A stretch of 64,000 bases of DNA from Streptomyces sp. DG2A-72 (GTDB taxonomy: Bacteria; Actinomycetota; Actinomycetes; Streptomycetales; Streptomycetaceae). Below, piece after piece: positions 28,577-45,846 of the stretch (position 1 is its first letter; each line of letters opens with the position of its first letter). The notes beneath the pieces are model-generated. The model had not been told where the DNA came from, did no database searches, and saw only the letters and a list, made by a program, of their open reading frames with translations. Location of the stretch: NCBI RefSeq assembly GCF_030499575.1, contig NZ_JASTLC010000001.1, positions 9,386,001 through 9,450,000 on the forward strand. Reading direction: 5' to 3'. Position numbers and translations under genes: made by a program.

Positions 28577-28612
28577 GTTCTTTATCGCGCACACAGTTGC
28601 GCAACAAGCAAC
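28577..28612. promoter_or_regulatory. Paired regulon operator A
   Basis: GTTCTT-TATCG-CGCACA (28577-28593, weak) and GTTGCG-CAACA-AGCAAC (28596-28612, strong) follow the GTTGCG-N5-CGCAAC pattern with centres 19 bp apart. The site lies 112-147 bp before the ferredoxin start and just after the MBL gene. Confidence 0.7.
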
Positions 28613-28678
28613 CATCACTGACGCGTCTCCAGGCCCTTGAATGCCTTGACAAGGGTTCAGGGGCGACCTCAGACTGAT

Positions 28679-28714
28679 GTTGCGCTTACCGCAATCAGTT
28701 TCGCTATACGCACC
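28679..28714. promoter_or_regulatory. Paired regulon operator B
   Basis: GTTGCG-CTTAC-CGCAAT (28679-28695) and GTTTCG-CTATA-CGCACC (28698-28714), centres 19 bp apart. It abuts the GAGGTGG ribosome site of the ferredoxin gene, so binding here would block transcription start or passage. Both copies match the consensus in at least 10 of 12 arm positions. Confidence 0.82.
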
Positions 28715-28723
28715 GAGGTGGTC

Positions 28724-29086
28724 ATGATGATTCCCGCGTGCCCTCTGGCGGATCTCCCGCGAGGAGAGGCTTTCCGGCTCGAGATCGACCCGCCCGTCAC
28801 GGTGTTCCACACCGAGGACGGCGAGCTCTTCGCCATCGACGACACGTGCACCCACCAGGACGCCTCGCTCGCCGACGGCTGGGTGGAGGACTGCTGGGTG
28901 GAATGCCCCCTGCATGCCTCGAAGTTCAACCTGAAGACCGGTGAGGTCGACGCCCCGCCGGCCAAGCTCCCCGTCCGGACCCACGAGGTCGTCGTCGACA
29001 ACGGCATGGTCTACGTGCAGCTGTCCACGACCGCCCCCAACCTGCCGCACTGCGTCGTGCGCAAGCTCGCCGGATCCGTCACGTGA
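28724..29086 (+). CDS. Rieske [2Fe-2S] ferredoxin
   Basis: 120 residues with the cluster ligands C42-x-H44 and C61-x2-H64 (TCTHQDASLADG and ECPLHASKF), the normal bacterial Rieske ferredoxin length. It carries electrons from the reductase to the oxygenase. The start is ATG 28724 or 28727, with GAGGTGG just upstream. The stop overlaps the GTG of the reductase by 4 bp. It is in one operon with the reductase, under operators A/B. Confidence 0.92.
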   Translation: MMIPACPLADLPRGEAFRLEIDPPVTVFHTEDGELFAIDDTCTHQDASLADGWVEDCWVECPLHASKFNLKTGEVDAPPAKLPVRTHEVVVDNGMVYVQLSTTAPNLPHCVVRKLAGSVT

Positions 29087-43669: not shown

Positions 43670-43694
43670 CCCCGATCTGACAGTTGTCAACCCA

Positions 43695-45449
43695 GCCCAG
43701 GGCGCCCGTATTTCAATAGGTACTCGGCAGAGGGGTGTTGGTGGGAGTCTGAGATATGACTTCGTGTCTGTCAGGCCGCGTTGCCGCTCGTGCTCTGCGG
43801 GTCAAGTTTGATCAGATCCTGCCGCACTTCGATGAGCGCCGCCGTCGGTTGTACCTGGCCAGTGAGGCGACGGCCCTGGGCCGCGGCGGGATCGTCCGGG
43901 TCGCCGCTGCCTCAGGCACCAGCACTGCAACCATCGCGCGAGGTATGGCTGAGTTGGCCGGTTGCCCCTCGCCGACCTTGCGGGTCCGGGTTCCAGGTGC
44001 GGGCCGCAAGCGGGTGACAGACACCGACCCTGGTCTGTGGCCCGCGCTGGAGTCGCTGATCGAGCCGCACACCCGAGGTGACCCCGTCCCCGTCTCCCCG
44101 TTGCGGTGGACCACGTTGTCGTTACGGGCCCTGGCCTCGACCCTCGCCGCACAGGGCCACCCGGTCAGCGCTTCAACCGTCGGACACCTGCTGCACACCC
44201 TGGGCTACAGCCTGCAGGGAACCGCGACGACAACAGAGGGCATCAGCCATCCGGACCGCGATGCCCAGTTCACCCACCTCAATGCCACCGCCGCCGCGTT
44301 CCTCAACGATGCCCAGCCGGTGATCAGCGTGGACACCAAGGCCAAGGAATGGCTCGGCAACCGGGACCGGCCGGGTCGCACCTGGCGGCCGGGCAAGAAC
44401 GCGATCAAGGTGGACTGCCACACGTTCACCACCAACGAGCAGCCCATGGCGATCCCCTACGGGATTTACGACATTGCCAACAACAGCGGATGGGTCAACG
44501 TCGGCACCGACCACGACACCGCCCAGTTCGCGGTGGAGTCCATCCGACGCTGGTGGCAGCACCGCGGACGGGCGGACCACCCGAATGCCGGCAGGCTCCT
44601 GATCACCGCCGACTCCGGCGGCTCCAACGACCCCCGCCGCTGGACCTGGAAAAGCAACCTTGCCGCCTTCGCACGAGAGAGTGGCCTGGAGATCACGGTC
44701 TGTCACCTACCGCCGGGGACTTCGAAGTGGAACAAGATAGAGCACCGGATGTTCTGTCACATCACCGTGAACTGGCGGGGGCGGCCGCTGACCAGCTACC
44801 AGGTCGTCCTCGAGACCATCGCCGCCACAACCACCAGGACCGGCCTGACCATCGGGGCCGAACTGGACACAGGCAGCTACGACCTCGGCATCAGCGTCAC
44901 ACCCGCCGAGTTCCACGCCCTTCCGATCACACCCAACGCCTTCCACGGTGACTGGAACTACACGCTGTCTCCCGTTCCAGCGCGAGCGCCAGACGCGCCG
45001 GCAACGACACACCGGATCGACCCGGCCCTGACCGCGATGCTCACCGATCCGGCGCTGACCGGCATGTCACGAACCGCCTTCGAGCATCTGGTGGCGGTCT
45101 CGGAGCCTTTCTGGGACGCCTTGGCCGAGGCGGCATTCCAGCGACGCTTCCACCGCCCGCGCAGCTACCGCCACCCACAGACCAGCAGCGTGGACCACAC
45201 CCACCGGCTCCTGGCAGCCATCCTCCGCCGCCGCAGAGCGGTGACCATGACGTTCCTGGCGCAACTACTGGGCGTCAACCGCACCAACTTGTCCATCCAG
45301 TACCAGGACGCAAAACGAATCCTGGACCTGCACTGGATCCTCGTCACACCAATACCCGGATCGCCCGCCCGCACATGGGAACAACTACACGCCCGAACAA
45401 CCCCCGCGGAAACCCGTCGCTGACAGTTATTGAAATACGGGCCCTGGGC
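43695..45449 (+). mobile_element. Insertion sequence, ISAzo13-type
   Basis: Inverted ends frame one transposase gene: GCCCAGGGCGCCCGTATTTC (from 43695, running to AATA at 43718) and, on the other strand, GCCCAGGGCCCGTATTTCAA (45449 leftwards). The ends are identical except for a 2-bp insertion in the left one. Size is 1.76 kb. No target duplication is obvious. It sits 25 bp from the 5' end of the group II intron, forming one block that separates the transporter operon from the demethylation/folate genes. Confidence 0.8.
43756..45423 (+). CDS. ISAzo13-family transposase
   Basis: 555 residues. The N-terminal part has an HTH (GIVRVAAASGTSTATIARGM). The DDE-type core includes FLNDAQPVISVDTKAKEWLG, YGIYDIANNSGWVNVGTDHD, AGRLLITADSGGSNDPRRW and PPGTSKWNKIEHRMFCHITV, giving D, D and E candidates in the expected order. 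This is the Rhodopirellula/ISAzo13 group. The frame is intact, so the element may still be active. ATG 43756 lies 38 bp inside the left end. Confidence 0.88.
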   Translation: MTSCLSGRVAARALRVKFDQILPHFDERRRRLYLASEATALGRGGIVRVAAASGTSTATIARGMAELAGCPSPTLRVRVPGAGRKRVTDTDPGLWPALESLIEPHTRGDPVPVSPLRWTTLSLRALASTLAAQGHPVSASTVGHLLHTLGYSLQGTATTTEGISHPDRDAQFTHLNATAAAFLNDAQPVISVDTKAKEWLGNRDRPGRTWRPGKNAIKVDCHTFTTNEQPMAIPYGIYDIANNSGWVNVGTDHDTAQFAVESIRRWWQHRGRADHPNAGRLLITADSGGSNDPRRWTWKSNLAAFARESGLEITVCHLPPGTSKWNKIEHRMFCHITVNWRGRPLTSYQVVLETIAATTTRTGLTIGAELDTGSYDLGISVTPAEFHALPITPNAFHGDWNYTLSPVPARAPDAPATTHRIDPALTAMLTDPALTGMSRTAFEHLVAVSEPFWDALAEAAFQRRFHRPRSYRHPQTSSVDHTHRLLAAILRRRRAVTMTFLAQLLGVNRTNLSIQYQDAKRILDLHWILVTPIPGSPARTWEQLHARTTPAETRR

Positions 45450-45810
45450 GGAAGTGAGTCCGCGCACCGGCACGCCCCGAACGGTTTTGGGCCCACTGGT
45501 CATCCGCTTTCGCATCCCGGGCGGAGACACGGATCGTGTCCGTGGTCCGAGCCGAGAGGGCGGAGTCCCTCACGACCTGGCCATGTGAATGCGGCCAGAG
45601 GCGACGGAGAGGCCCTGAATCATCTCTCTGGTGGAGCAGAGGCCCCGCACGCTGGCGCCGCACTCGGCGTCCCAGATCGCGCTGCCACGCTAACTCGTTC
45701 GCCGCCCAGTGCCGCAAGCCCGTAAGCCCGTAAGCCGACCATCACACGATCGAGCTAAACGTCCCTGCGTGCTGAGCTCTTGACACCCCTCCCCGAGGCG
45801 GGCACATTGA
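45450..45810. other. IS flank without a supported gene
   Basis: No recognisable coding sequence. It holds the right flank of the IS and leads into the promoter of the dimethylglycine oxidase gene. Confidence 0.5.
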
Positions 45811-45846
45811 GTTGCGCAACCTGAAGCACGTTGCGCAGAAAGCAAC
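45811..45846. promoter_or_regulatory. Paired regulon operator G
   Basis: GTTGCG-CAACC-TGAAGC (45811-45827, left arm perfect, right arm weak) and GTTGCG-CAGAA-AGCAAC (45830-45846), centres 19 bp apart, lie 31-66 bp before the dimethylglycine oxidase start. The island motif therefore continues beyond the IS/intron block. Confidence 0.8.

Follow-up and report, generated by a model that had tools for sequence, protein, structure and literature searches.

The stretch considered here, 64,000 nucleotides (nt) of the soil bacterium Streptomyces sp. DG2A-72 (contig NZ_JASTLC010000001.1; the window in what follows), contains an island of choline genes in which the same paired palindrome recurs before one gene unit after another. 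Which protein reads this repeat, and to what effect? The repeated unit is 36 base pairs (bp) long, GTTGCG-N5-CGCAAC-NN-GTTGCG-N5-CGCAAC, with one half weak in some sites; in all probability it is bound by a single repressor that regulates its own gene as well. I consider it highly likely that this repressor is the IclR-family protein encoded within the island, which as a dimer of dimers on nine such operators would govern a choline-to-glycine regulon.

The first-pass annotation had named seven paired palindromes, and all seven are present where it placed them. A matrix trained on these seven and applied to the whole window raises the number to nine, adding sites at 32304 and 26768. The training sites score 31.8–42.8, and no window position that does not overlap a site exceeds 6.7. 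When each of the seven was left out of the training in turn, it was still found within the top 8 positions of the window. A rescan with a matrix retrained on relatives found no further operator sites in the window beyond the nine. The operators, all found by the matrix and some also supported by relatives, are listed here with the proposed regulator.

26768..26803, plus strand: operator of the mscR-MBL unit (MBL, metallo-beta-lactamase-fold hydrolase); matrix score 20.8; TTGAC box 32 nt before; centre 54.5 bp before the mscR start
28577..28612, plus strand: upstream (far) operator of the ferredoxin/reductase unit; 102 bp from the main operator; no TTGAC box before it
28679..28714, plus strand: main operator of the ferredoxin/reductase unit; relatives; TTGAC 33 nt before
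30272..30307, plus strand: operator of the Rieske oxygenase gene; TTGAC 32 nt before
32304..32339, minus strand: operator of iclR, spanning a -10-like TATAGT and the GTG start codon; matrix score 26.9; relatives
32379..32414, plus strand: operator of betA; relatives
35103..35138, minus strand: operator of purU; relatives; TTGAC 30 nt before
35246..35281, plus strand: operator of the betB-ABC transporter unit (ABC, ATP-binding cassette); relatives; TTGAC 29 nt before
45811..45846, plus strand: operator of the unit of a dimethylglycine oxidase-type gene (dmgo) and folD; TTGAC 31 nt before
31515..32312, minus strand: IclR-family regulator, the proposed repressor; Pfam HTH_IclR and IclR_C; co-occurrence with the motif

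The two added sites change the earlier picture. The mscR/MBL operon had been described as lacking an upstream site, and its exclusion from the regulon must be given up in view of the site at 26768–26803, the sites upstream of mscR in 59 relatives and the operators of a compact form of the cluster described below. The shorter GTTGC-AA-GCAAC at 32343 had been taken for the site in the iclR promoter; that form is kept by only 6 of 80 relatives and was rejected as the iclR operator, the real one being 32304–32339. As for the site at 32379, which had been called a perfect palindrome, its arms are indeed perfect, while its 5-base centre is asymmetric. Counted singly, the 17-bp palindrome with up to three mismatches shows no excess in the window (41 occurrences for 59 expected), and the first palindrome copies at 28577, 30272 and 35246 carry more than three mismatches. 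The evidence therefore rests on the 36-bp pair and on its conservation.

Conservation was assessed in 80 related Streptomyces loci whose IclR is 85–90% identical to the window protein. Of 569 positions to which the matrix gave at least 12, I discarded 32 because they scored under 14 or had a better-scoring neighbour within 25 bp. The remaining 537 sites, all at 14 or above, comprise 324 distinct ones. Five column-permuted matrices gave 0, 2, 0, 1 and 10 positions at that level, as compared to 549 for the true matrix. Each site was assigned once, to the nearest gene start, from 60 bp inside the gene to 350 bp upstream of it. By this rule 530 of the 537 belong to genes of the choline/betaine pathway, to a BCCT transporter gene or to iclR, and seven are left over. 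The assigned sites number 116 for ferredoxin, 83 for iclR, 66 for betA, 62 for betB, 60 for mscR, 56 for purU, 40 for the oxygenase, 38 for the dimethylglycine oxidase-type gene and 9 for the BCCT transporter, a gene that was not in the training set and yet has operators. The iclR start has a site in all 80 loci, its centre 0–9 bp before the start codon; mscR was detected in 60 loci, sites being counted per gene in reach. Centres of neighbouring palindromes are 19 bp apart in 460 pairs (18 bp in 8, and 20 and 22 bp in one each), so that the fixed phasing first noticed in the window holds widely. The only other distances seen often are 55–57 bp (58 pairs); 7 and 26 bp account for 9 pairs each. 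The outer half-sites are the stronger, positions 1–5 summing to 7.8 bits as compared to 4.1 bits for the inner positions 13–17, a bias that, taken with the 19-bp phasing, points to two dimers bound to the same face of the double helix.

The operators also hold a fixed place in their promoters. Promoter boxes were surveyed at 523 sites, with only those distances listed that occur at least three times in a unit; sites at the start of a locus with no gene in reach were entered as dmgo sites on the minus strand. Six units, with 330 sites, have TTGAC 27–33 nt before the operator in at least 321. Over all 523 sites there are 325 TTGAC boxes at 27–36 nt, as compared to about 2 per 10 nt further upstream. 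An operator at this distance covers the -10 and start region, which fits repression by a block to the polymerase. Of the sites assigned to iclR, 81 of 83 have TATAG or TATAC within the operator, and an operator over the gene's own -10-like box and start codon points to autoregulation.

Is the motif confined to the island? A sequence-only model of 73 sites, whose training set includes the nine of the window, recovers eight of those nine in the 10.58-Mb genome. Outside the island it gave no match at E up to 10, with 150 of the 1487 genome candidates scored and sensitivity limited. A pattern built on the outer anchors and allowing up to three mismatches finds, in the whole genome, six island sites and four other places. 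All matches with two mismatches or fewer lie in the island; the four outside have three each and negative matrix scores. The reversed control of this pattern has 11 matches and the true pattern 14, so at three mismatches the pattern alone is near chance. A loose half-site pattern proved useless, its 7378 forward and 7142 reverse matches in the genome falling below the reversed control. In 400 kb from 20 stretches elsewhere in the genome, scored with the matrix retrained on relatives, all positions stay below 10 and the highest score is 6.6. Model, pattern and sample thus give no sign of a similar motif density in unrelated regions, which would have spoken against a regulon.

Operators also accompany relatives of the IclR protein where the genes are arranged otherwise. 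The protein belongs clearly to the IclR family (PF09339, 56.5 bits, cutoff 22; PF01614, 157.8 bits, cutoff 24). Its class B relatives, 54–60% identical, stand in a differently arranged, compact cluster that keeps the same operators: the ferredoxin/reductase genes run one way and iclR, mscR and the oxidase-type and oxygenase genes the other, with operators in the ferredoxin/iclR gap and in the iclR/mscR gap in each of the six clusters drawn. betB is part of the cluster in five of the six, and the oxygenase gene lies some 4–6 kb from iclR in 12 of 12 such genomes. For betA, four of the six clusters have a match no closer than 35–38% identity, and none was found in the remaining two. Among other genera of the order, two (L131, L133) have further arrangements with an operator before the oxidase unit, and a third (L132) has a weak site only (15.8), before iclR. 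With the same operators in several arrangements, it is operator and gene set that are kept, and not gene order. All class A proteins share the recognition helix VHKSTAFRLL, the 14 of class B keep it almost without change, and both class C proteins aligned depart from it. Three class C proteins (L105, L107 and L118, 46–48% identical) have no adjoining site, the best position scoring 7.1.

Co-occurrence of motif and regulator was counted in two samples, with an IclR relative called at E up to 1e-60 and the motif at E up to 0.05. Among 150 Streptomyces genomes, IclR is found in 79, and the motif in 64 of these 79 as compared to none of the 71 without IclR. A sample of 197 genomes of the order, mostly Streptomyces and sharing 14 IclR-positive genomes with the first, has the motif in 70 of 91 IclR-positive genomes and in none of 106 IclR-negative ones. 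Both model scans used stricter filters, by which weak matches are lost. The 15 genomes of the genus sample with IclR and without the motif were re-read locally. In 11 of the 13 that carry a class A or B protein, a site scoring at least 15.9 stands beside iclR, where 20 permuted matrices reach 11.2 at most. The other two (G027, G132; 54% identity, with no adjoining pathway genes) have no site, nor do the two whose IclR is of class C (46–48%). Of the 21 such genomes in the order sample, the ones also present in the genus sample were re-read, together with G157. Finally, the oxygenase occurs in 66 genomes, in 65 of them together with this IclR. In the remaining one, G058, the oxygenase and oxidase-type genes are present without the IclR, and there is no site beside them (best -3.5).

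The genes under the operators are the following.

26840..27925, plus strand: S-(hydroxymethyl)mycothiol dehydrogenase mscR (formaldehyde detoxification); TIGR03451, 694 bits, cutoff 513
27925..28554, plus strand: metallo-beta-lactamase-fold hydrolase, directly 3' of mscR; PF00753
28724..29086, plus strand: Rieske ferredoxin; PF00355
29083..30243, plus strand: ferredoxin reductase; PF07992, PF14759
30374..31543, plus strand: Rieske oxygenase, probably glycine betaine monooxygenase; best NCBIfam model GbcA, 225 bits, below the cutoff of 670
32464..34140, plus strand: choline dehydrogenase betA; TIGR01810, 870 bits, cutoff 732
34208..35089, minus strand: formyltetrahydrofolate deformylase purU; TIGR00655, 341 bits, cutoff 286
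35307..36776, plus strand: betaine aldehyde dehydrogenase-like betB; PF00171; TIGR01804, 588 bits, below the cutoff of 669
36773..40861 (ends approximate), plus strand: glycine-betaine-type ABC transporter (ATPase, permease, OpuAC binding protein); PF00005, PF00528, PF04069
45877..48315, plus strand: dimethylglycine/sarcosine oxidase-type enzyme, substrate range putative; DAO, FAO_M and GCV_T domains
48308..49192, plus strand: folD, so named in the first-pass annotation; open reading frame

From operators and genes a mechanism may be proposed. On each of the nine 36-bp operators IclR would sit as a dimer of dimers, anchored mainly by the outer half-sites. At six of the nine, where the operator follows directly on a TTGAC -35 box, the bound protein would block RNA polymerase, and through the operator over its own -10-like box and start codon IclR would repress itself. 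The predicted targets of repression are uptake, the oxidation of choline and betaine and the oxidative demethylation that leads to glycine, together with formaldehyde disposal and the release of one-carbon (C1) units from folate. A metabolite of the pathway, most likely a methylated glycine, would release the repressor. The first-pass annotation had proposed one regulator, IclR, acting as two cooperating dimers in repression, and co-occurrence, conservation and promoter position all favour that proposal.

Several observations weigh against this account. The oxygenase has an assigned site in only 40 of the 71 loci where it was detected, and the oxygenase, betB and the IclR protein itself all fail to reach the cutoff of the named NCBIfam model that each matches best. 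G027 and G132, as well as a stand-alone copy of the regulator at 71% identity (L104), have no site nearby, and a copy at 67% (L102) has only a weak one (10.4). No TTGAC box recurs at the usual distance from the betA operator, and the far ferredoxin operator (44 sites) lacks one altogether. These last two, not placed just after a TTGAC box, leave some room for the same IclR binding the sites and mainly activating, or activating some units and repressing others, a mode proposed for BhcR. Among NCBIfam models the IclR protein matches the BhcR equivalog best (NF045644, 198.4 bits, below the curated cutoff of 350), and BhcR is reported to activate its cluster in vivo (PMC11323563). Activators, however, do not normally sit where the operators of six units do, starting 27–33 nt from the start of TTGAC, over the -10 and start region, nor over a -10-like box and start codon as at iclR, and I regard activation as improbable.

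The identity of the regulator is open to a different doubt. IclR, oxygenase and motif are inherited together, so that from co-occurrence alone the regulator cannot be told fully apart from the pathway; linkage by itself would yield much of it, and some regulator encoded elsewhere might bind the operators, IclR being a neighbour by chance or merely a target. This is very unlikely, since the operators are kept across several arrangements that share this IclR, class C proteins are without an adjoining site and the two aligned have a changed helix, and in G058 the oxygenase without this IclR has no site beside it. Motif type and spacing, moreover, match those described for the IclR family (PMC8222616). 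That the repeats are chance, compositional or of some non-regulatory use, such as recombination or termination, could appeal to the lack of enrichment of the single 17-bp pattern, but it hardly deserves belief against conservation, the fixed position relative to promoters, the few positions that permuted matrices bring to 14 in the 80 loci and the lack of any at that level in the 400 kb of the same genome. Repression by IclR thus accounts best for the operators.

Some relatives extend the gene set. A BCCT transporter gene was found in 11 of the 80 loci, with the 9 sites mentioned above; the gene with an operator stands upstream of mscR in L007, L008, L012, L018, L019, L024, L025, L046 and L068, and also in L098, whose protein is a betaine/carnitine/choline carrier by Pfam. 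In L098 (11831–13522) two genes absent from the window follow betA, one for an alpha/beta hydrolase and one without a Pfam match, and such extra genes occur in some other relatives as well. In L096, another genome stretch, an operator stands at the start of an L-serine dehydratase gene (11698–13196), plausibly an exit from glycine and serine, and further sites in L096 and L136 precede genes for major facilitator superfamily transporters. L099, L101 and L136 have a second cluster with another IclR copy, copies of purU and mscR and the same operators; a second IclR copy at 75–80% identity is found in at least 11 of 150 genomes. With a second copy beside the same operators, two regulators may share sites.

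In 43 of 74 loci the two ferredoxin operators are separated by 101–103 bp, and the far one may be an auxiliary operator or belong to a second promoter. I do not take this spacing as evidence of DNA looping between the two, because other neighbouring operators are also at nearly fixed distances (74–75 and 143–145 bp). The dmgo operator in relatives is only a few hundred bases from the transporter genes. In the window some 5 kb (40862–45810) intervene, containing a reverse transcriptase gene (RVT_1, 42072–43418) and an ISAzo13-type transposase gene (43756–45423) with inverted GCCCGTATTTCAATA ends seen by eye. The dimethylglycine oxidase-type unit, though separated in this way, retains its own promoter and operator.

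What of the effector? E. coli IclR is described as a tetrameric repressor released by glyoxylate (PMC11323563), and the same source tabulates the oxygen-contact residues of IclR, AllR and BhcR as Gly160, Ala161 (Ile in BhcR), Asp212, Ser239 and Ser241. The window protein is of the same family as these proteobacterial regulators. In an alignment to AllR read by eye, with conservation taken from the class alignment, most of the residues that contact glyoxylate or pyruvate are lost: Asp212 is Ala203 (Thr in 93% of class A), Gly160 is Ser151 and Ala161 is Ser152. The AllR patch Met143/Met146/Leu154 is replaced by Ala134/Ala137/Thr145, and what is kept are Ser239 (Ser230), Ser241 (Ser232) and Leu220. 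Glyoxylate is accordingly judged unlikely, and I would expect a larger, methylated ligand. In the compact cluster mscR, the operators and the enzymes of demethylation are all present, while betA is distant or was not found, and this raises the tentative idea, which I would sooner doubt than accept, that the subfamily senses the demethylation side (a methylated glycine, formaldehyde or a C1 signal) and not choline.

The architecture of the operator is not new. Tandem IclR-family sites 18–22 nt apart are described for 94 orthologous groups and linked to tetramer binding (Suvorova and Gelfand 2021, PMC8222616), and here too the centres are 18–22 nt apart, mostly 19, and lie mostly 20–80 nt before gene starts. 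That paper describes a GTT-11-AAC subgroup with consensus GTTYCRYW3RYGRAAC. The window operators share the 11-nt distance between GTT and AAC, GTTGCGNNNNNCGCAAC, and differ in having GTTGCG where the subgroup has GTTYCR: of the 324 unique sites, both orientations counted, 88% have G, and not Y, as the fourth base of the outer box. The operator of TphR (terephthalate, Comamonas), listed as a single palindrome in Table 1 of the same paper, has the core TTGCG-N5-CGCAA in common with the window operators; pathway and organism differ. The words choline and betaine do not occur in the main text of that paper, which does mention the asymmetry of TtgV.

TtgV, which I find distant in sequence from the window protein (61 bits), offers a structural parallel. 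It is a drug-efflux regulator of the IclR family that is a tetramer on DNA (PDB 2xrn, 2xro). Choline and betaine catabolism is elsewhere regulated by GbdR, of the AraC family, and by BetI, of the TetR family, both unrelated to IclR; they control the same kind of pathway as the window protein with regulators of other families. For BetI this role is given in PMC12442346. In the literature searched by titles and the openings of abstracts, with subscription journals mostly uncovered, there is no Streptomyces or IclR regulator of this pathway. It is well supported, then, that this is a new regulon of known architecture, undescribed as far as that literature goes.

The analysis names a candidate regulator and nine operators for the breakdown of choline and glycine betaine in Streptomyces, and it indicates that this regulon also takes in formaldehyde detoxification and the release of C1 units from folate. 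The operator, conserved and set in a fixed promoter layout, might also serve as a tool for inducible expression. Should the subfamily prove to sense the demethylation side, it would act as a switch of the IclR type by which oxidative demethylation is tied to mycothiol-dependent disposal of formaldehyde.

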